Assembly: GCA_907163225.1 (NCBI GenBank)
Contig: OU015322.1
Span: 372,001-436,000 of the forward strand
Direction: 5' to 3'
DNA length: 64,000 bases
Source: an uncultured Rhodocyclaceae bacterium
GTDB taxonomy: Bacteria; Pseudomonadota; Gammaproteobacteria; Burkholderiales; Rhodocyclaceae
Shown here: positions 48,053-57,507 of the stretch, in pieces
Layout: each line of letters starts with the position of its first letter
Numbering within the stretch: position 1 is the stretch's first letter
Program-made: the position numbers and the translations under genes
The notes under the pieces: generated by a model
The model's database searches: none
What the model saw: the letters and a program-made list of their open reading frames with translations, nothing else
Told to the model about the DNA's origin: nothing

Positions 48053-50143
48053 ATGTTTAATCTTTCGCGCTATTTCTCGACCGTCAGTTTCATCCTGATC
48101 GTACTGGCGGCTGGGGTACTCGGCCCGCTTTACCAGAAACTGTCGCTGCAGCAGATGCAGGATCTGGCCGAAGGCCGCAATGTCGCGATGGCGCAGGTTT
48201 TTCAAAACTCCCTGCATCGCTCACTGGCTTCGCTGATGAGCAACTCGATGGGGCAGGACATCAATTTTCTCAAGCAGTCGACCGAGGCAAGTCAGTTGCG
48301 CGCCAGCGTGCTCGACTTGATGCGTGATACGGCGATCACCAAAGTCAAAATCTACAACCGTCTGGGCAACACGGTTTTTTCGACCGATAGCGCGCAAATT
48401 GGCGAGAGTCGGCTGGGCAACCCGGGCTTTGGTTCGGCGATGAGCGGACAGGTGTTCAGTAATCTGACTCACCGAAACAATATTGACAGCTTCGAAGGCG
48501 CCCTGGTTGATGTCGACGTGCTGTCCAGCTACGTCCCCATTCGCGGCAAGGACAGTGCTGTCGAAGGCGTTCTGGAGCTCTATCAAAACGTGACGCCCTT
48601 CGTCACTCAGCTGAACCGCAGCCTGTGGCTGGTTACAGCCGGTGTCGTGGTGGTGTTTGCGCTGCTTTATTTGATGCAGTTTCTGGTGGTCCGGCGCGCT
48701 CAAGGGATTCTGGAGGATCAGGAGGGTCGCATCACGGCCGCCCGCGATACCCTTGAGATTCAGGTAGCGGCGCGTACCGATGAGCTGAAGCGGACCAATA
48801 ACCAGCTCGAAGGCGAAATTTCAGAACGCCGGCAGGCGCAAAGCAAACTCAATTATCTGGCCTATCACGATCCACTGACCGGGCTGGCCAACCGCCGCTG
48901 TTTTATCGAGCGGCTTGAAGAGAGCCTGCGTGAAACGGCACGCCGCAAGGAGCGCCTGGCCGTGCTCTTCATCGATCTCGACCAGTTCAAGCAGGTCAAT
49001 GATTCGCTTGGCCACGGCGTTGGTGATGAATTGCTGGTCTCCGTGGCGTCCCGCCTGTCCGAGCATGTGCGCCTGATCGACATGCTGGCCCGACTCGGGG
49101 GAGACGAGTTTATCTGTCTGATGGAAGGTGTGCGCAGCGAAGACGAGGTTAAATTGCTCGCCCGCGAAATTCTTGCTGCCTTCGAATTCCCCTTCAAGCT
49201 CGGTGATCACGAGCTGTTTTTGAGCGCCTCAGTCGGCATCAGCCAGTCACCGGGCGATGGCGACAGCGTGCTGGCGCTGATGCGCAATGCCGATACGGCG
49301 ATGTATCGCGCCAAGGCGTCGGGGCGTGGCAATTACCATTTCTACACACCGGAGATGACGCGCAACGCGCAGGAACGCATCCAGATGGAAAACCTGCTGC
49401 GCCGTGCGCTGGAGAATGGCGAGCTATCGGTGCACCTGCAACCGCAGGTTGAAGCCGGCAGCGGCCGTCTGGTCGGCGCCGAGGCGCTGGTGCGCTGGAA
49501 CAGCCCGGAACTTGGCCTCGTCATGCCGATGCGTTTCATCCCGCTGGCTGAGGATTCGGGCCTGATCGTCGGGCTTGGCAACTGGGTCCTGCGCGAAACC
49601 TGCCGTCAGGTGATGCTTTGGCGCGCCAGCGGCTTCGATCTACCGCAGGTCGCCGTCAATCTGTCGGCCAAACAACTGGAACGTCCGGAATTTATCGATG
49701 TACTGAGCCAGATTCTTGCAGAAACCGGCATGGAGCCATTCCGCCTCAAGCTTGAACTGACTGAGTCCGTGGTGATGGCGGTAAGCGGCGATGCTTTCGC
49801 CTTGCTTGAACGCTTGCGCGATCTCGGCATTGGTCTGTCGCTCGATGATTTCGGTACCGGCTATTCATCATTGAGTTACCTGAAAATGCTGCCGGTTCAG
49901 CAGTTGAAAATTGACCGCTCCTTTGTCGAGGGAATTGGCAAAAACCCGGGCGACGAGGCGATCATCAAGACCGTGATGGAACTCGCCCGCAGCCTGGATT
50001 TCGAGGTCATTGCCGAAGGTGTCGAAACGGCCGAGCAGGCCGATTTTCTGAGGACGCTCGGTTGCCACCAATTGCAGGGCCATCTGCACGGTCGCGCCGT
50101 CGCGCCCGCCGAGTTTCGCGCCCGCTGGTCGGTTCGTTTGTGA
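48053..50143 (+). CDS. Membrane-anchored GGDEF-EAL protein
   Basis: Bifunctional-type c-di-GMP protein of 696 residues. Two membrane helices (about 8-28 and 190-212) enclose a periplasmic sensor domain of about 160 residues; a coiled coil follows (about 220-265), then GGDEF (about 265-430, intact RLGGDEFICLME near 347-358) and EAL (about 445-690) with [25 protein letters not shown] and VIAEGVETAEQ. Both active sites look complete. It starts 27 bp after radA and its stop shares a base with the start of the permease gene (TGATG). Confidence 0.92.
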   Translation: MFNLSRYFSTVSFILIVLAAGVLGPLYQKLSLQQMQDLAEGRNVAMAQVFQNSLHRSLASLMSNSMGQDINFLKQSTEASQLRASVLDLMRDTAITKVKIYNRLGNTVFSTDSAQIGESRLGNPGFGSAMSGQVFSNLTHRNNIDSFEGALVDVDVLSSYVPIRGKDSAVEGVLELYQNVTPFVTQLNRSLWLVTAGVVVVFALLYLMQFLVVRRAQGILEDQEGRITAARDTLEIQVAARTDELKRTNNQLEGEISERRQAQSKLNYLAYHDPLTGLANRRCFIERLEESLRETARRKERLAVLFIDLDQFKQVNDSLGHGVGDELLVSVASRLSEHVRLIDMLARLGGDEFICLMEGVRSEDEVKLLAREILAAFEFPFKLGDHELFLSASVGISQSPGDGDSVLALMRNADTAMYRAKASGRGNYHFYTPEMTRNAQERIQMENLLRRALENGELSVHLQPQVEAGSGRLVGAEALVRWNSPELGLVMPMRFIPLAEDSGLIVGLGNWVLRETCRQVMLWRASGFDLPQVAVNLSAKQLERPEFIDVLSQILAETGMEPFRLKLELTESVVMAVSGDAFALLERLRDLGIGLSLDDFGTGYSSLSYLKMLPVQQLKIDRSFVEGIGKNPGDEAIIKTVMELARSLDFEVIAEGVETAEQADFLRTLGCHQLQGHLHGRAVAPAEFRARWSVRL

Positions 50144-52629
50144 TGATCGGACAGGCCTGGCGTGTCTTGGGCCGCGAGTTGCGCTCCGGCGAACTCCGCT
50201 TGCTGTTTGCGGCGTTGGCGATAGCGGTTGCTGCGGTCACTGCCGTCGGCTTTTTCGCCGATCGCGTGCACTTGGCGTTGGAGCGCGAGGCCCGGCAAAT
50301 GATGGGCGGCGACCTTATCCTTGTTTCCGATCATGCCTTGCCAGACAGTTACGTTTCCGAGGTGAACCGTCGTGGCTTGCTCTCGGCACAGACGATGATT
50401 TTTCCGAGCATGGTGATCGGCCCCGAGCAAGCGCAACTGGCCGATATAAAGGCAGTCAGCCGCAACTACCCGCTGCGTGGGCGGGTTGAAATCACCGTGA
50501 AAGCCGGTGCGAGCGGCGCACCCACCGAAGGTGGCCCGATGCCGGGCACCGTCTGGCTGGACGAACGCTTGTCGGCCGCCTTGCAGGTCGCGCCGGGTGG
50601 CTCGGTAACCGTTGGCGCGAAAGTCTTGACGGTTGCCGCCATCCTGACCCGGGAGCCGGATCGCGGTGTCAATTTTTTCAGCCTGGCGCCGCGCCTGATG
50701 ATGAACCTCGACGACATCGCGGCGACCGGACTGGTCCTTCCCGGTGCGCGCATTCGATACAGCCTGCTGGTGGCTGGCGGAACGAAGGCCGTGGCTGATT
50801 TTCAATCCTGGCTGGCCGGCCGGCTGGAGCGTGGTGAGCGACTGGAAGATACCCGCAACGCCCGTCCGGAGATTCGCGGGGCACTCGACCGGGCTGAGCG
50901 CTTTTTGGGCCTTTCCTCGGTGCTCACTGTCGTGCTTTCGGCGGTAGCGGCGGCGATGGCTGCCCGCCGCTACATGCAGCGCCATCTCGATGCCTGCGCC
51001 ATCATGCGCTGCCTGGGAATGACGCACGGCGGGCTATTGCGTCTCCATGCCTGGCTCTTCTTGTGGCTGGCTTTGCTGGCTGCGTTGCTCGGCTGCGCCG
51101 TCGGCTACGCCGCGCACTTTGCCTTGATCCACTGGCTTTCGGCCTTGCTCGTGCTCGAATTGCCGGCGCCGGGCTGGCTGCCGCTGGTCAGCGGATTCGG
51201 CGTGGCTGGCGTCCTGCTTTTTGGCTTTGCCTTTCCACCGCTGATGCAACTGGCCAGTGTGCCGACCCTGCGCGTGCTGCGCCGCGAACTCGGGCCGCCG
51301 CGGCCCTTGTTGCTCGGCGGCTATGCCCTCGGCCTGGTCTTGTTGGCCGGACTGATCATGGCGATGGCCGGGAACGTTCAACTCGGTGCCTGGGCGGCCG
51401 GTGGATTTGTCGTCGCGCTCGGCGGTTTCTGGGTGGTCGCTCGCCTCGTGATTGCCGCCATCGCACGCCTGCGCGGCGGGGTCGGGTTTGGCTGGCGGCA
51501 AGGCTTGGCCAGCTTGACGCGCCACGCATCGACGAGCGCCGTCCAAATCGTCGCGCTGGCGATTGGCCTGATGGCGATGCTGCTGCTGACGGTGATTCGT
51601 GCCGAGTTGCTCGATGCCTGGCAAAAATCGGTGCCGGCCGATGCACCCAACCGTTTCGTCGTCAATATCCAGCCCGAGCAGCGCGAGCCGGTGGTGGCGC
51701 AGCTTAGGGCCAGCGGTATCGAGGCGGAACTGCTGCCCATGGTTCGAGCCCGGCTGATCAAAATTGCCGGCAAGGAGGTCAGCCCGGCCAGTTTTCCGGA
51801 GGACGAACGCGCCCAGCGTCTGATCGAACGCGAATTCAACCTGTCGTGGCGTAGCAGTTTGCCAGCGGGCAACCAGGTCAGTGCCGGTCGCTGGTTCGCG
51901 CCGGAAGAAGCGGGGCAGGGCCTGGCTTCCGTCGAAGATGGCTTGGCTAAGACACTGGGCATCCAGCTTGGTGACGAGTTGGTGTTTATGGTGGCCGGTG
52001 TCGAAAAACGGGTGCGAACCACGAATCTGCGCAAGCTGTCGTGGGATTCGATGCGTGTCAATTTCTTTGTGCTGACGCCGCCCGGCGTCATCGAGGACGC
52101 GCCGGCCAGCTACATCACCAGTTTCCATCTGCCGGCGGCGCAGGCCGAGGTGGGTTCCGAGCTGGTCAGGCGTTTCCCCGGCTTGACCCTGATCGATGTC
52201 GGGGCGGTGCTGCAGCAACTGCAGGCGGTGGTCGGGCAGGTGGCCGGGGCGGTGCAGTTTGTTTTCCTGTTCGCGCTGCTGGCCGGCGGAATCGTTTTGT
52301 ACTCGGCGCTGCTGACGGGCTTCGACGAGCGGCGCTACGAATTGGCCGTGATGCGGGCATTGGGGGCTCACCGAGCACAGTTGCGGCAGGCCATGCTGGT
52401 TGAACTGGCGGTGATCGGCAGTGTGGCCGGGTTGATGGCGGCGATTGGCGCCACACTGCTCGGGCGCATAGTCGGGCAACAGGTCTTTCAGCTGGATCTC
52501 GCCTTCGGGTTCTGGCTGCCAGCCCTGGCAACCGCCGGCGGTGGGCTGCTGGCGGTGCTTATCGGTTGGCTGGCCGTGCGCCAGTTGATCGCCACGCCAC
52601 CGTTGCTCGCTTTGCGGAACGGCGCCTAA
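50143..52629 (+). CDS. FtsX-type ABC transporter permease (YbbP-like)
   Basis: Inner-membrane protein of 828 residues with two FtsX permease regions; hydrophobic helices near 20-40, 260-440 and 700-820, with large periplasmic parts between. It resembles E. coli YbbP, whose ATPase partner YbbA and a TesA-type esterase are usually adjacent; neither is present here, so the partner must be elsewhere. ATG 50143 overlaps the GGDEF/EAL stop; earlier in-frame starts overlap that gene deeply and are rejected. It overlaps the RsbW-type gene convergently by four bases. Confidence 0.87.
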   Translation: MIGQAWRVLGRELRSGELRLLFAALAIAVAAVTAVGFFADRVHLALEREARQMMGGDLILVSDHALPDSYVSEVNRRGLLSAQTMIFPSMVIGPEQAQLADIKAVSRNYPLRGRVEITVKAGASGAPTEGGPMPGTVWLDERLSAALQVAPGGSVTVGAKVLTVAAILTREPDRGVNFFSLAPRLMMNLDDIAATGLVLPGARIRYSLLVAGGTKAVADFQSWLAGRLERGERLEDTRNARPEIRGALDRAERFLGLSSVLTVVLSAVAAAMAARRYMQRHLDACAIMRCLGMTHGGLLRLHAWLFLWLALLAALLGCAVGYAAHFALIHWLSALLVLELPAPGWLPLVSGFGVAGVLLFGFAFPPLMQLASVPTLRVLRRELGPPRPLLLGGYALGLVLLAGLIMAMAGNVQLGAWAAGGFVVALGGFWVVARLVIAAIARLRGGVGFGWRQGLASLTRHASTSAVQIVALAIGLMAMLLLTVIRAELLDAWQKSVPADAPNRFVVNIQPEQREPVVAQLRASGIEAELLPMVRARLIKIAGKEVSPASFPEDERAQRLIEREFNLSWRSSLPAGNQVSAGRWFAPEEAGQGLASVEDGLAKTLGIQLGDELVFMVAGVEKRVRTTNLRKLSWDSMRVNFFVLTPPGVIEDAPASYITSFHLPAAQAEVGSELVRRFPGLTLIDVGAVLQQLQAVVGQVAGAVQFVFLFALLAGGIVLYSALLTGFDERRYELAVMRALGAHRAQLRQAMLVELAVIGSVAGLMAAIGATLLGRIVGQQVFQLDLAFGFWLPALATAGGGLLAVLIGWLAVRQLIATPPLLALRNGA

Positions 52630-53024
52630 AGATCAATTTCGGTGACGTTGCTCTCGCCCTGTCTTTTATGGCGAAGGGCCTTGCTCATGCCTCGAATCAG
52701 GCTGATGCCCAAACCGCCAATTTCTACGGTCGACGCGATTTTTGGGCCAATTTTCGACAGATCGAAAGGCGCTGCGTCGTCTTCGTAACGCAATGTCGAT
52801 ACCTTGTTTTCATGGCTCAGGGATACCTTGACAGCATGGTCGCTGTCGCCACGATGACCATGGACGATGGTGTTGGCAAATAGCTCTTCGGCAATCAGTT
52901 GCAGCCGCACGGCGTCGTCGGGCGCAATGCCGAGTTCAAGCGCAAGGGCTGCGATAGCATCAAGCAGGCCCGGCAGTTCAGCACTGCGCGCGCGGACGGA
53001 AATATCCGTAAAATGAGCAGACAT
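52626..53024 (-). CDS. RsbW-type anti-sigma factor / serine kinase
   Basis: A 132-residue GHKL ATPase of the HATPase_c_2 type. The N box AEELFANTIVHG (Glu47, Asn51), an Asp-containing EDDAAPFD (82-88) and GGLGISLI (103-110) are all present, so kinase activity is plausible. In partner-switching systems this protein binds a sigma factor or other target and phosphorylates the STAS antagonist. A STAS gene (57157) and a SpoIIE phosphatase gene (54072) are close by. Its ATG is only 22 bp from the divergent fecR-like ATG. A degenerate dispersed repeat overlaps it at 52724-52757. Confidence 0.85.
   Translation of the reverse strand: MSAHFTDISVRARSAELPGLLDAIAALALELGIAPDDAVRLQLIAEELFANTIVHGHRGDSDHAVKVSLSHENKVSTLRYEDDAAPFDLSKIGPKIASTVEIGGLGISLIRGMSKALRHKRQGESNVTEIDL
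52724..52757 (+). repeat. Degenerate dispersed repeat in the RsbW-type gene
   Basis: CTACGGTCGACGCGATTTTT then GGGCCAATTTTCGA. Antisense to the gene. Confidence 0.45.
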
Positions 53025-53046
53025 TGATTCAGTTAAGGTTTTTGCG

Positions 53047-53505
53047 ATGATTAAAACACATTGGGCGGCAGTTTGTGCGCTGCTGCTCTCTTTCTTCTGT
53101 AGTTCGGCCTATGCCGGCGATTCGGCCGGGATGATCAAAGTCACCAAAGGGCAGGTCAGCATTGAGCGCAACGGGAAAAAAATGCCAGCCGAGGTTGGCA
53201 GCCCGATTGAGGTTGCCGATCGCGTTCGCACAGGTGCCGATGGCTCGGTAGGGGTGACGCTAAGGGACAATACCTTGCTCTCGGCCGGCCCGAATTCGCT
53301 GATCGTCATCGAGAAATTTGCTTTCGACAACACGACGCAAGACGGCAACATGTCGATCCGCATACGCAAGGGAACCTTGTCAGTCGCGTCCGGCAAGATT
53401 GCCAAACGAACGCCGGAATCCGTCGATTTCCATACGCCGACGTCGGTGCTCGGTGTGCGCGGTACGGAGTTTGTCATTGAAGTGGCAGGTGGTAACGATG
53501 AGTAA
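53047..53505 (+). CDS. Secreted FecR-domain protein
   Basis: A 152-residue precursor with a signal peptide (MIKTHWAAVCALLL to SSAYA) followed by a FecR domain: VTKGQVSIERNGKKM, VGVTLRDNTLLSAGP and TPTSVLGVRGTEFVI. Periplasmic FecR domains of this kind are often encoded beside CHASE2 sensors, as here. It has no anti-sigma N-terminal region and so differs from true FecR. Its end overlaps the start of the OmpA-like gene by eight bases. Confidence 0.88.
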   Translation: MIKTHWAAVCALLLSFFCSSAYAGDSAGMIKVTKGQVSIERNGKKMPAEVGSPIEVADRVRTGADGSVGVTLRDNTLLSAGPNSLIVIEKFAFDNTTQDGNMSIRIRKGTLSVASGKIAKRTPESVDFHTPTSVLGVRGTEFVIEVAGGNDE

Positions 53506-54085
53506 GCCAGGTATTTCCTTCGCTCTGGCGGCCATGCTGATACTCGGCGGTTGCGCCAGCGAACGGATTGTCTTGTTGCCTTCAGTCGACGGCCAGAAGA
53601 GCGCGGTCGTCGTCCGCGACGCGGCCGGGGAAGTCTTGCTGGATCAGCCATACGCCGCCATCAAGCGCAGCATGGATGCAAACAAGACCTATCAGTCATC
53701 AGCGCAAGAGGTGAAGGAGCGTTTTGCCCAGGCGCTGAGTGCGCAGCCGGGACGTCCGCTGAGTTACGTGTTGTATTTCGAAGCTGGCGGCAATGTTCTG
53801 ACGGCAGAATCCCAAGCTGCGCTCGCCAATATTCGCAAGGAAATTGCCGAACGGCCAGCTTCCGAGGTCATGGTCATCGGGCATACCGACCGTGTTGGTA
53901 GCGTTGATGGCAATGACAAACTGTCCAAAAAACGGGCGGAAGGACTGCTTGATTTGTTGATTGAGTCCGGTGTCCCTGCGGCCAAACTCGAAGCCGTTGG
54001 TCGCGGCGAACGCGATCCACTGGTGCCGACGGATGACGAGGTCGACGAGCCAAAAAATCGGCGCGTGGAGATCAGCGTTCGTTAA
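53498..54085 (+). CDS. OmpA-family outer membrane lipoprotein
   Basis: A 195-residue lipoprotein precursor: lipobox LILGGC near residue 18, then a C-terminal OmpA/MotB peptidoglycan-binding domain (about 90-195) with VIGHTDRVGSVDGND and AVGRGERDPLVP...NRRVEI. It probably anchors to the outer membrane and the cell wall. Coupled to the FecR-domain gene by overlap, it overlaps the phosphatase gene convergently by 14 bases. Confidence 0.88.
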   Translation: MSKPGISFALAAMLILGGCASERIVLLPSVDGQKSAVVVRDAAGEVLLDQPYAAIKRSMDANKTYQSSAQEVKERFAQALSAQPGRPLSYVLYFEAGGNVLTAESQAALANIRKEIAERPASEVMVIGHTDRVGSVDGNDKLSKKRAEGLLDLLIESGVPAAKLEAVGRGERDPLVPTDDEVDEPKNRRVEISVR

Positions 54086-56201
54086 GTGAGTTACCGTTCC
54101 ACTGTACCAACATCAAGGTCAGGTCATCCGCAGGCGGTTGGCCAGCCTCGAAATGCCGAACGGCATCGCGCAGCGCGTTGGTAGCAGCTTGAATCCTGAT
54201 GTTGCCGCTGGACTGGAATGCCGCCTGCAGGCCTTCCAGTCCAAACATTTTGGCACCGTTGTGGGCTTCAGTAACGCCATCTGTGAAAAGGCATAGCCGG
54301 TCACCAGGTTGCAATTGCACCCGATCTGCCACGTAAGGATAGTGGTCTGCGGCGCATAGCGGCGGGCCCGACGTCGGGCTGGTGTCGATGCGCGATAGCT
54401 CGCCATTTCGCAGCACGATGGGGGCGTCATGACCTGCGCAGACATAGTCCATGCTGCCCGAGTTCACATCTAGGATGGCGATGAACGTGGTAACGAAGAG
54501 ATATTCGGTATTTTCCCGGTTCAGCTCTCTTTCAAGCTCCCGCACCGCGTTGCCCAGGTTGGCCTGCCGGCGCGTCAGCGTTCCCGTCAACGTCTTTGAA
54601 ATGGCCATGAACAGACTGGCCGGCAGGCCTTTGCCGGAAACATCACCAACCGCCAGGCAGAGACGATCCTCGCTGAGCATGAAACAGTCGTAATAGTCAC
54701 CACCGACGGCGCGTGCCGGTTCGAGCAGCGCGGCAATGGCAAAACGTGTTTCGTTGGCAAAAATAATCGCCGGGTTCGGCAGCAGACCCATCTGGATGCG
54801 CCGGGCAGCATCCAGCTCGCCGGCAACTCGGGCGGCATCCTCGCGGCTGTTCTGCAGCTGCAATTCTGCTTCGCGGCGCCGGGTATCAGCGGCAACCAGG
54901 GTATTGCCCAGCAGCAAAATAAACACCGGGCTGAGCAATAGCACCTGCGTACTGCCATCGAACAGCCATCGGCCAGCAAAAAAAGCGGCATAGCCACCAG
55001 CAACGATCAGCAAGGCCAGGCCGGCAAAACTGAGTACGGCATAACGTGGCCTGAGCACGGGAATAGCCATAATCAGCAGCAGGCCAACGAATAGCAGCGT
55101 TGCAAGCTCTGCGTATGGCATCCACCAGGGGCGCTGCAAGGCTTGTCCACTGAGCAAGCTTTCAATCACCTGGGTGTGAATGTCGATGCCGGGCAGGCTT
55201 TCCCCCAGTGGCGTTACGATCCTGTCCTGCAGGCCGGTACTGTTGAAGCCGATGATGACGAAGCGGGATGCAAAGAGTTCGGGGGGATGCACACCAGATA
55301 GCACATCCGCGGCCGACAAATAGTAATTTGACGAGGCGCGGCCAAAATGAAGCAAGAGCTCGCCGTTGGCTTGTGTCGGCAGTCGATAGTCGCCAATGCG
55401 GATGGCTGTCATGCCGCGAAACCCGCTTTCCGGTATGACCTGGCCGCCTTCACCCAGGGCGAGCCGAACCATTTCTAGCGGCAGGGAGAGGAACGGCAAC
55501 TGGTTGATGAAAGCCAGCGTCGGAACTCGCCGCAATATGCCGTGTTCGCTGTTTGACTGAAGCGCGCTCGGACTGGCGTTGATTAGCCCTTCGCCAGCTG
55601 CGGCCTTTTCAAGGATCGGGCGGCTGGCCAAGGCGCCGACATATTGCGGAATGCTTTGGTCTATCGGGGTCTCGTGGCTGAACTCGGGAAGAGGGCGGGC
55701 TGGTTGCGTCGATCCGGGTAGTGCCTTGCTCAGTCCAACCACGGCCAGGGCGGTGTTGGGGCCGATGAGTGCTTTCGCCAACAACCTGTCGGGATCCGGC
55801 AATCCGGCGCGAACATCGGCAGGCAGGCCGGGAATGCGCGCGTTGAGCAACTCCGGGCTATACCGATCACGCTCAGCAAAAACGATATCAATGCCAAGCG
55901 CCAGCGGCTTGCCCGCATGGATTTTGTGGACAAGTTGGGCGACAAGGTCGCGGGACCAGGGCCACTGGCCATGTTTGACCAGACTTTGACTATCAATCCC
56001 GACCACGATCACCGGCTCGCTGTCGCGGACACGGGGCATCAAGCGCTGGTATTGGTCAAACTGGGCTTCGCGAACACGGAGCAAGGGGGTTTGCTCGATG
56101 GCGCCCAATATCGCCAAGCCGGCGAGCAGCAACAGAAATGGGAGTGCCCGGCCGCGTCCGGCCCGGATCAGGGCGAGGGGCAGGCCGGTCAGTCTTTTCA
56201 C
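54072..56201 (-). CDS. CHASE2 sensor with SpoIIE/PP2C phosphatase domain
   Basis: A 709-residue inner-membrane protein. One helix (about 18-36), a periplasmic CHASE2 domain (about 40-330), three helices (about 340-425), a linker coiled coil (about 430-475) and a C-terminal SpoIIE-type phosphatase (about 480-705). Metal-binding Asp residues are in VGGDYYD, VGDVSGKGLPASLFMA, LFTDGVTEAHN and ADDLTLML, so the enzyme looks active. The likely substrate is the phosphorylated STAS protein encoded two genes upstream. Its ATG overlaps the MBL-fold gene stop. Confidence 0.9.
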   Translation of the reverse strand: MKRLTGLPLALIRAGRGRALPFLLLLAGLAILGAIEQTPLLRVREAQFDQYQRLMPRVRDSEPVIVVGIDSQSLVKHGQWPWSRDLVAQLVHKIHAGKPLALGIDIVFAERDRYSPELLNARIPGLPADVRAGLPDPDRLLAKALIGPNTALAVVGLSKALPGSTQPARPLPEFSHETPIDQSIPQYVGALASRPILEKAAAGEGLINASPSALQSNSEHGILRRVPTLAFINQLPFLSLPLEMVRLALGEGGQVIPESGFRGMTAIRIGDYRLPTQANGELLLHFGRASSNYYLSAADVLSGVHPPELFASRFVIIGFNSTGLQDRIVTPLGESLPGIDIHTQVIESLLSGQALQRPWWMPYAELATLLFVGLLLIMAIPVLRPRYAVLSFAGLALLIVAGGYAAFFAGRWLFDGSTQVLLLSPVFILLLGNTLVAADTRRREAELQLQNSREDAARVAGELDAARRIQMGLLPNPAIIFANETRFAIAALLEPARAVGGDYYDCFMLSEDRLCLAVGDVSGKGLPASLFMAISKTLTGTLTRRQANLGNAVRELERELNRENTEYLFVTTFIAILDVNSGSMDYVCAGHDAPIVLRNGELSRIDTSPTSGPPLCAADHYPYVADRVQLQPGDRLCLFTDGVTEAHNGAKMFGLEGLQAAFQSSGNIRIQAATNALRDAVRHFEAGQPPADDLTLMLVQWNGNSLNER

Positions 56202-57160
56202 AGGTCGATGGTCAGCCCGTCGTAGGCGGAAATGATTTCAAGCGGGTCATGGCTACCCCGGGTGATCTGCTCTAGCCGCCGGGTTTCGACGACCAGGCGG
56301 GCGAGCTGCTTGTCGTCATGCACTGGTTCGTGGTGAAACAGCGCGAGCCGCTTGGCCGAAGCCGCCTGGCAAATTTCTACCCCGACGATGTTGCTGGAAT
56401 GCCCCCAGTCCGCCTTGACGGATACCGCTTCAGCCAGCGAGTACATGGCATCGAAAACGACCAGATCAGCCTTGTAAAAAAAGCGGGTGAAGGCGTCATG
56501 TTCAGCGGAATTTTCAAGGGTGTGCTCGGAGTCGGTTGAATAGACAACCGTGCGGTCGATGCTCTCAAAGCGGTAGCCGTATGAGTCGCCAGCGTGCATT
56601 TGCAGCTTGGGCGTCACGTTGATGCCCGCGATGTAGCGTGGTTCGTCCGGTGTCATGATATCGAATTCGATAAGGGCACCGGCTTGTGAGTAATCAACCG
56701 GGAAGTTGGGGGCCTGCATCTGTAGCCGGATAGCTTGCTCCAGCTGCGCGTGGCAGCCATGCACAACGATGCGGTTTCCCGGAATGTACATGGGCGCGAA
56801 ATAGGGAAAACCCATCAGGTGATCCCAATGCAGGTGCGAAATAAAGATGTGGTAGGTCTGCGCATTGGGCACGCCGTAGCGGGCGATTTTTGCCTGCCCT
56901 AGCGGGCGTGCGCCGCTGCCCATGTCGCAGATGAAGTGCTCCGGGCCATCGCCAACTATCTCGACGCACGAAGAGTTACCACCAAAGGTTCCGGCAACCG
57001 AGAAGGGCAGTTTGTCCACGAACTCGTCGAGTGCTTCCCTTGTTTTGAACGTTTTGCCATTGGCTGCGGTCAAAGCCGCAATGATTTTTTCGCGAACGTC
57101 ACGGTGGGACAGGGAAACCGGCAGCGAACCGCGGGTTCCCCAAAATACAACTTGTTTCAT
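56198..57160 (-). CDS. MBL-fold metallohydrolase
   Basis: A 320-residue cytosolic hydrolase of the metallo-beta-lactamase fold. It begins VVFWGTRGSLPVS and carries the metal motif SHLHWDH (His109, His111, Asp113, His114) and FHHEPVHDD near the C-terminus. The WGTRGS N-terminus is seen in the PhnP/cyclic-phosphodiesterase-like branch, but the substrate cannot be named. It is sandwiched with ATGA overlaps between the STAS gene and the phosphatase gene, so it very likely takes part in the same pathway. Confidence 0.85.
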   Translation of the reverse strand: MKQVVFWGTRGSLPVSLSHRDVREKIIAALTAANGKTFKTREALDEFVDKLPFSVAGTFGGNSSCVEIVGDGPEHFICDMGSGARPLGQAKIARYGVPNAQTYHIFISHLHWDHLMGFPYFAPMYIPGNRIVVHGCHAQLEQAIRLQMQAPNFPVDYSQAGALIEFDIMTPDEPRYIAGINVTPKLQMHAGDSYGYRFESIDRTVVYSTDSEHTLENSAEHDAFTRFFYKADLVVFDAMYSLAEAVSVKADWGHSSNIVGVEICQAASAKRLALFHHEPVHDDKQLARLVVETRRLEQITRGSHDPLEIISAYDGLTIDL

Positions 57161-57507
57161 GATCCGATGACTTTGCTTGCGGATTCGACGCTGGCGTAGC
57201 AGGGCACAATCAGGTTGAAGCGACTGATCGCAAAGACTTCCTGAACCATGGGTTGCAATGCTGCGATGGCAAAGCTGCCGTTTTGGGCTTTGGAACGGCG
57301 GGAGGCCATCATCAGAACGCGCAGGCCGGCACTGCTGATGTAATCAACAGCGGAAAAATCTAGCAGAATGGGCGGGTGGCCCTGGGTGCAGCGATCAAGC
57401 AATGGATCAAGCGCTTTGGCGAACGCTTCGCTCGTGGTGTGGTCAATTCGACCGCTGACCGAAACAATAAGTACACCGGCCTGTTCGCGGGTGGGAAGAT
57501 TCATCAT
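57157..57507 (-). CDS. STAS-domain anti-sigma factor antagonist
   Basis: A 116-residue SpoIIAA/RsbV-type protein. The phosphorylation-site region is conserved: [20 protein letters not shown], with Ser58 aligned to Ser58 of SpoIIAA. Two adjacent ATG codons (57507 and 57504) are possible; a longer frame would add an unrelated lead. It is first in the STAS-MBL-phosphatase operon, divergent from the ygiQ-like gene by 74 bp. Unphosphorylated STAS would sequester the RsbW-type kinase. Confidence 0.9.

Follow-up and report, generated by a model that had tools for sequence, protein, structure and literature searches.

Partner-switching systems such as RsbU/RsbV/RsbW and SpoIIE/SpoIIAA/SpoIIAB comprise a kinase, a STAS protein with an acceptor serine and a PP2C phosphatase, and they are the nearest solved relatives of the locus described here. 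In proteobacteria, the STAS protein is likewise the hinge of HsbR-HsbA, SypE-SypA and BtrU-BtrV-BtrW, as set out in two papers on such switches (PMC6482189, PMC8256260). We analyzed a 64-kb stretch of an uncultured Rhodocyclaceae bacterium (the window; positions 372001-436000 of a single-contig 3.46-Mb genome, all coordinates below being those of the window) in which an earlier note had placed six genes at 52626-57507: those of an RsbW-type kinase, a STAS antagonist, a CHASE2-SpoIIE phosphatase, a metallo-beta-lactamase (MBL)-fold hydrolase, a FecR-domain protein and an OmpA lipoprotein. All six open reading frames were present there, each above the Pfam cut-off for its assigned family, and together they form a conserved unit in which the MBL enzyme is a candidate output.

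To define the loci for comparison, we scanned the genome collection for relatives and took the best 80 of 193 as loci. Among 150 genomes of the family, 13 encoded a full-length MBL orthologue (at least 56% identity, own genome included), with a second and more remote group at 30-38%. The 369 class genomes gave 11 above threshold (own included, eight others distant) and added G240 and G396, while the 398 phylum genomes gave 3 (own included) and added G758 and G846. Removal of duplicate contigs and of relatives below 45% identity (L058, L072, L073 and L074, on the same contigs as L032-L035; L078, at 44.2%; L080-L083, below 39%) left 48 loci, and 39 of these, the window's own included, had room on both sides. 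All six genes occurred in identical order and orientation in 30 of the 39 loci. Counted as neighbors of the MBL gene, STAS was found in 37 loci, CHASE2 and SpoIIE in 36 each, OmpA in 33, FecR in 33 (one of them a shortened copy, in L035) and the kinase in 32. The complete set was also found where the stretch examined held neither ygiQ nor ybbP, the genes that flank the unit in the window (L034, L038, L039, L077, L157 and L197; L077 is outside the 39, having too little flanking DNA). Two of these lie beyond the family, L157 in another family of the same class and L197 in a genome that shares only the phylum. The earlier note had proposed a dedicated partner-switching unit and had named a gene set not conserved in relatives as grounds for giving that up; the set is conserved, and the proposal is supported.

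Some loci depart from the full arrangement. A shared breakpoint divides the unit of G846 and G024 into STAS-MBL-phosphatase and kinase-fecR-ompA, and both halves are retained on one contig, approximately 386 kb apart in G846 and 31 kb apart in G024, which argues for a dedicated unit. In L035 (also sampled as L074) the phosphatase gene is gone, apart from an apparent short 3′ remnant read by eye, and fecR encodes 66 residues; STAS, MBL, OmpA and kinase are kept, and a search of the genome at 1e-40 turned up no phosphatase of the unit's kind. Because this is a single metagenome-assembled genome, the assembly may be at fault. Some parts of the unit were not found within the locus stretches of L067, L068 and L076.

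We next consider the components of the switch. The kinase (132 residues; 52626-53024, minus strand; HATPase_c_2, 1e-15) is a GHKL-type serine kinase with the catalytic glutamate and asparagine expected of an RsbU/V/W system: E47 and N51, singled out previously, were identical in 30/30 aligned kinases. Its structure model is closest to SpoIIAB/RsbW. The solved matches comprise SiaB beside SpoIIAB, UsfX and RsbW, so that the model leaves a sigma target undecided, and we dropped the fold as proof of one. In L040 (genome G126), a methyltransferase-like gene (L040:4485-5783) begins just past the kinase stop codon. The phosphatase (709 residues, GTG start; 54072-56201, minus strand) joins a CHASE2 sensor (4.1e-49) and membrane segments to a SpoIIE/PP2C domain (5.2e-42), with hydrophobic segments at 17-41 and 359-440. 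Its conserved aspartates are those of a partner-switching phosphatase and agree with the earlier description, D502 and D520 being identical in 39/39 sequences and D641, D692 and D693 in 38/38 rows with a residue there. The STAS protein (116 residues; 57157-57507, minus strand; Pfam STAS, 1.8e-20) also scored above the TIGR00377 cut-off. Ser58, proposed earlier as the phospho-acceptor, is present in all sequences, but so is its neighbor, S58 and S59 both being identical in 42/42; in an ungapped alignment with SpoIIAA the acceptor serine (alanine in 1tid) corresponds to Ser59, and Ser58 falls at the preceding aspartate position. The protein thus has an acceptor serine at the SpoIIAA position, one residue beyond that first named. 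Two tandem STAS genes lie upstream of the MBL gene in L033/L072.

In the window's own genome, PF05226 (CHASE2) gave a single match, the window phosphatase, and among 12 matches to PF13581 the window kinase was the only small protein covering nearly the whole model. PF01740 (STAS) gave five matches, including one other small stand-alone STAS protein, encoded in an apparent chemotaxis gene cluster (L203:2637-2942). Elsewhere the genome encodes a response-regulator-PAS-SpoIIE protein (L200:2764-4311), because of which cross-talk is possible; together with the chemotaxis-linked STAS protein it possibly constitutes a second switch.

The MBL-fold protein (320 residues; 56198-57160, minus strand; Lactamase_B_2, 7e-15) is of the RNase Z/YhfI/PhnP type, with helices at 19-56. 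H109, D113, H114, H189 and D210 were conserved in 45/45 sequences, H111 in 43/45, and H254 and H276 in 44/44; we take these residues, with their HxHxDH-type motif, to form the metal site, a role assigned from the fold class. The structure model (predicted local distance difference test, 91.2) found its best solved matches in YhfI, RNase Z and PhnP, which places it in their fold class, and the list of fold matches also included Apyc1 and yeast PDE1. The protein fell below every NCBIfam cut-off, and we rejected both a tRNase Z assignment (TIGR02651, 52.3 bits against a cut-off of 292.95) and a known cyclic nucleotide phosphodiesterase (NF041851, 40.6 bits against 400). The modeled fold points to a substrate of phosphodiester type, RNA or nucleotide, and does not tell which. 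Over 23 chosen loci, median identity to the window was 81% for MBL, 77% for STAS, 73% for FecR, 71% for OmpA, 66% for the phosphatase and 50% for the kinase; over 22 loci the flanking genes gave 85% (ygiQ) and 68% (ybbP).

The three minus-strand genes run STAS, MBL, phosphatase, with a 4-base overlap at each junction. Both junctions had been described as ATGA, which is correct for STAS-MBL; at MBL-phosphatase the overlap is GTGA, owing to the GTG start. Convergent with them, the plus strand carries fecR (53047-53505; 152 residues with an apparent signal peptide, by eye; FecR, 1.4e-11) and ompA (53498-54085; 195 residues; OmpA, 3.8e-19; hydrophobic segment 8-28). With the ATG at 53498 taken as the ompA start, these two genes share 8 bases. 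In the OmpA protein we noted, by eye, a presumed lipobox-like ILGGC and what we take to be a peptidoglycan-binding motif, GHTD/LSxxR. The convergent 3′ ends of ompA and the phosphatase gene overlap by 14 bases, and the kinase gene is divergent from fecR, as first reported, with 22 bases between the start codons (53025-53046). The unit is flanked by ybbP, whose product is a permease of that type, and by ygiQ, a radical-SAM gene (Pfam, NCBIfam), and no sigma factor gene adjoins it. Just upstream of the ybbP flank lies a gene for a GGDEF-EAL protein (48053-50143), which shows no sign of membership in the unit.

Subsequently, to examine the sensory part, we searched the family with the phosphatase as query and inspected, in stretches of 9-14 kb, all 14 loci outside the module that matched only the CHASE2 half. 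Every one of these 14 relatives carried a Guanylate_cyc domain. Genes for FecR and OmpA proteins adjoined the CHASE2-cyclase gene in 11 of the 14 loci, ten of them arranged convergently as in the unit and one head to head, so that the view of FecR and OmpA as companions of CHASE2 is upheld. No STAS match was found in these stretches, and an MBL gene was seen in L159 alone, as a distant MBL-GAF-HD fusion 1.2 kb from the CHASE2-Guanylate_cyc gene (L159:4077-9292). One such CHASE2-cyclase locus (L165) comes from a member of the window's genus whose genome lacks the module. Separately, L108:7916-10834 holds an MBL gene divergent from a CHASE2-Guanylate_cyc gene. In trees, a single branch divides phosphatase and cyclase versions of CHASE2 (support 89/81) and of OmpA (100/100), and in the FecR tree the same label needs two changes, via one very long row, L171. 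Because the trio recurs in cyclase form without STAS or MBL, CHASE2, FecR and OmpA look like a sensor cassette with interchangeable outputs.

The kinase-fecR gap measured 18-31 bases in the same-family loci in which both starts could be placed; three loci gave negative values through wrong start choice. The gap is 29 bases in L206, in which the kinase-fecR half lies far from the STAS operon, and a local promoter is therefore likely. A non-contiguous operon, in which transcription from the STAS promoter would continue through antisense ompA-fecR into the kinase gene, was an idea suggested by the short divergent gap and the overlapping convergent ends, and we do not claim it. Over the first 30 codons, no extra synonymous constraint was detected at the 5′ ends of fecR (p 0.83) or the kinase gene (p 0.52). 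In a consensus scan no promoter-like site appeared, against 1.6 expected, and terminator-like sites numbered 14 against an expectation of 6.1 (sd 2.4).

From the gene content, the catalytic residues, the gene order and the fold classes, we infer an envelope-to-cytoplasm unit running from sensor to STAS switch, with the MBL enzyme as its most likely local output, a reading that we consider evenly poised between right and wrong. The inner-membrane CHASE2 domain, with a periplasmic FecR protein and a peptidoglycan-binding OmpA protein as accessories, would read the state of the envelope, as the recurring cassette suggests. The kinase would phosphorylate STAS at Ser59, judging from the conserved residues; SpoIIE, activated by the signal, would strip the phosphate, and unphosphorylated STAS would then switch partner. 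That partner would most likely be the MBL enzyme itself, a phosphodiesterase-type protein coupled in translation to STAS and, on this view, gated by it directly, so that the switch would start or stop the enzyme's cleavage of its phosphodiester substrate, be it a nucleotide or RNA, with the kinase left mainly to set the state of STAS.

The MBL enzyme is favored as output because STAS adjoins its gene in 37/39 loci and the phosphatase in 36/39, the other members being present in 32-33, and because it is coupled to STAS and has diverged least among the six. It also occurs with a different switch: a Desulfobacteraceae contig (L082:994-5881) encodes MBL, STAS, a HATPase_c_2 kinase, a HAMP-SpoIIE protein and a second, convergent MBL gene. 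Moreover, L158 (genome G396) has STAS and MBL as a pair with no other member of the unit, and the genes flanking the unit are not sigma genes. The remark that no sigma factor is adjacent and that the output is open stands, with the MBL enzyme a better candidate than was then allowed. Several observations weigh in the opposite direction. The counts overstate independence, because the 39 loci come mostly from close relatives. Nor is the degree of conservation of MBL unusual, the flanking ygiQ standing at 85%. G396, with its bare STAS-MBL pair, has another locus with kinase-SpoIIE, STAS and CHASE2 elsewhere. L036 has the MBL gene without the other five, and a STAS-kinase pair lies elsewhere in the same genome; L040 and L078 have MBL without an adjoining STAS. 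Switch genes are present in just one, L082, of the five remoter full-length relatives L078 and L080-L083 (identity 34-44%; short contigs in some cases), and a further 40 MBL loci, more remote again (L084-L123), yielded no match to STAS or SpoIIE.

We therefore weighed other outputs. The kinase may be an anti-sigma factor for a sigma encoded elsewhere, RpoS being the first guess, which would be freed when dephosphorylated STAS captures the kinase; the MBL enzyme would then be an accessory, for instance adjusting a nucleotide or RNA. A target encoded away from the unit deserves serious weight, because the known switches of proteobacteria control RpoS, FlgM or targets that are unknown (PMC6482189, PMC8256260). 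We hold the sigma explanation to be unlikely, though the strongest of the alternatives.

Slightly more doubtful is that dephosphorylated STAS acts in trans on some other protein, for example a diguanylate cyclase, a protein resembling FlgM or part of a secretion apparatus (an extracellular contractile injection system in the case of one genus). The literature describes STAS proteins whose targets are either unknown or not sigma-related, namely SypA and BtrV (PMC8256260) and HsbA (PMC6482189). Furthermore, the two halves of the unit in G024 bracket a cluster of Pvc16, sheath and tube genes (contig 55, approximately 7-43 kb; L204, L205 and L041). However, the Pvc16_N marker was present in 6/13 family genomes with the MBL orthologue against 29/137 without it (150 genomes; Fisher p 0.078), and the recurrence of other genes near the unit was checked by eye in 14 loci only. 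With bracketing confined to G024 and that degree of association, we rejected the injection system as a general output. In G085, of the same genus as G024, the phosphatase and a Pvc16 gene each lie at a contig end and may adjoin; the window's own genome carries, at approximately 2.66 Mb (L221), a relative of the G024 contractile injection cluster. Finally, the many closely related genomes and the shared ygiQ and ybbP flanks might suggest that chance or recent common descent has kept two or three unrelated neighbors together. This is highly improbable, since the order of the six genes persists in the six loci free of these flanks and the halves co-occur even when separated.

Returning to the MBL enzyme as output, its fullest form, in which STAS gates the MBL phosphodiesterase and the partner switch ends in a second-messenger or RNA turnover enzyme, with mirror forms of the sensor, is a tentative proposal that we think less probable than the general one. 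If true, the CHASE2/FecR/OmpA sensor would exist in two mirror forms, one making a cyclic nucleotide through CHASE2-cyclase and the other controlling nucleotide or RNA breakage through STAS dephosphorylation. Apart from that reading, the locus shows a three-protein cassette for envelope sensing in use with more than one cytoplasmic output, together with a conserved switch that brings a nuclease-like enzyme of its own. As the candidate effector sits in the operon, the output of an orphan proteobacterial switch becomes directly testable.

Among openly licensed PubMed Central papers, we found none describing this combination, whether as CHASE2 with SpoIIE and partner-switching or as partner-switching with metallo-beta-lactamase, SpoIIE and STAS. 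The MBL protein shares its fold and HxHxDH-type metal-site residues with the phosphodiesterases YhfI, RNase Z, PhnP, yeast PDE1 and Apyc1, but differs from them in its low identity (12-23% in structural alignments), its helices at 19-56 and its scores below NCBIfam cut-offs. Compared with SiaABCD, a system of Pseudomonas aeruginosa, the unit has an MBL gene instead of a diguanylate cyclase gene, and its phosphatase scored 35.2 bits on the SiaA model NF038263, for which the cut-off is 700. CHASE2 with a FecR-domain partner is shared with the same-family CHASE2-cyclase loci, which also have OmpA, and with the BiofilmReg operon of Burkholderia, described in PMC5192318 as a response regulator, a LysM-FecR protein and a CHASE2 histidine kinase; there the output is a cyclase or a histidine kinase rather than SpoIIE, and STAS, switch kinase and MBL are missing. 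HsbR and SypE are response regulators, whereas the window unit has a membrane CHASE2 phosphatase, a separate kinase and an included MBL gene. Collectively, these comparisons make the unit a variation on partner switching and not a system of a new kind: unlike RsbU/V/W and SpoIIE/AA/AB it has no adjacent sigma gene, and it adds CHASE2, FecR and OmpA and places an MBL gene between those of STAS and the phosphatase.

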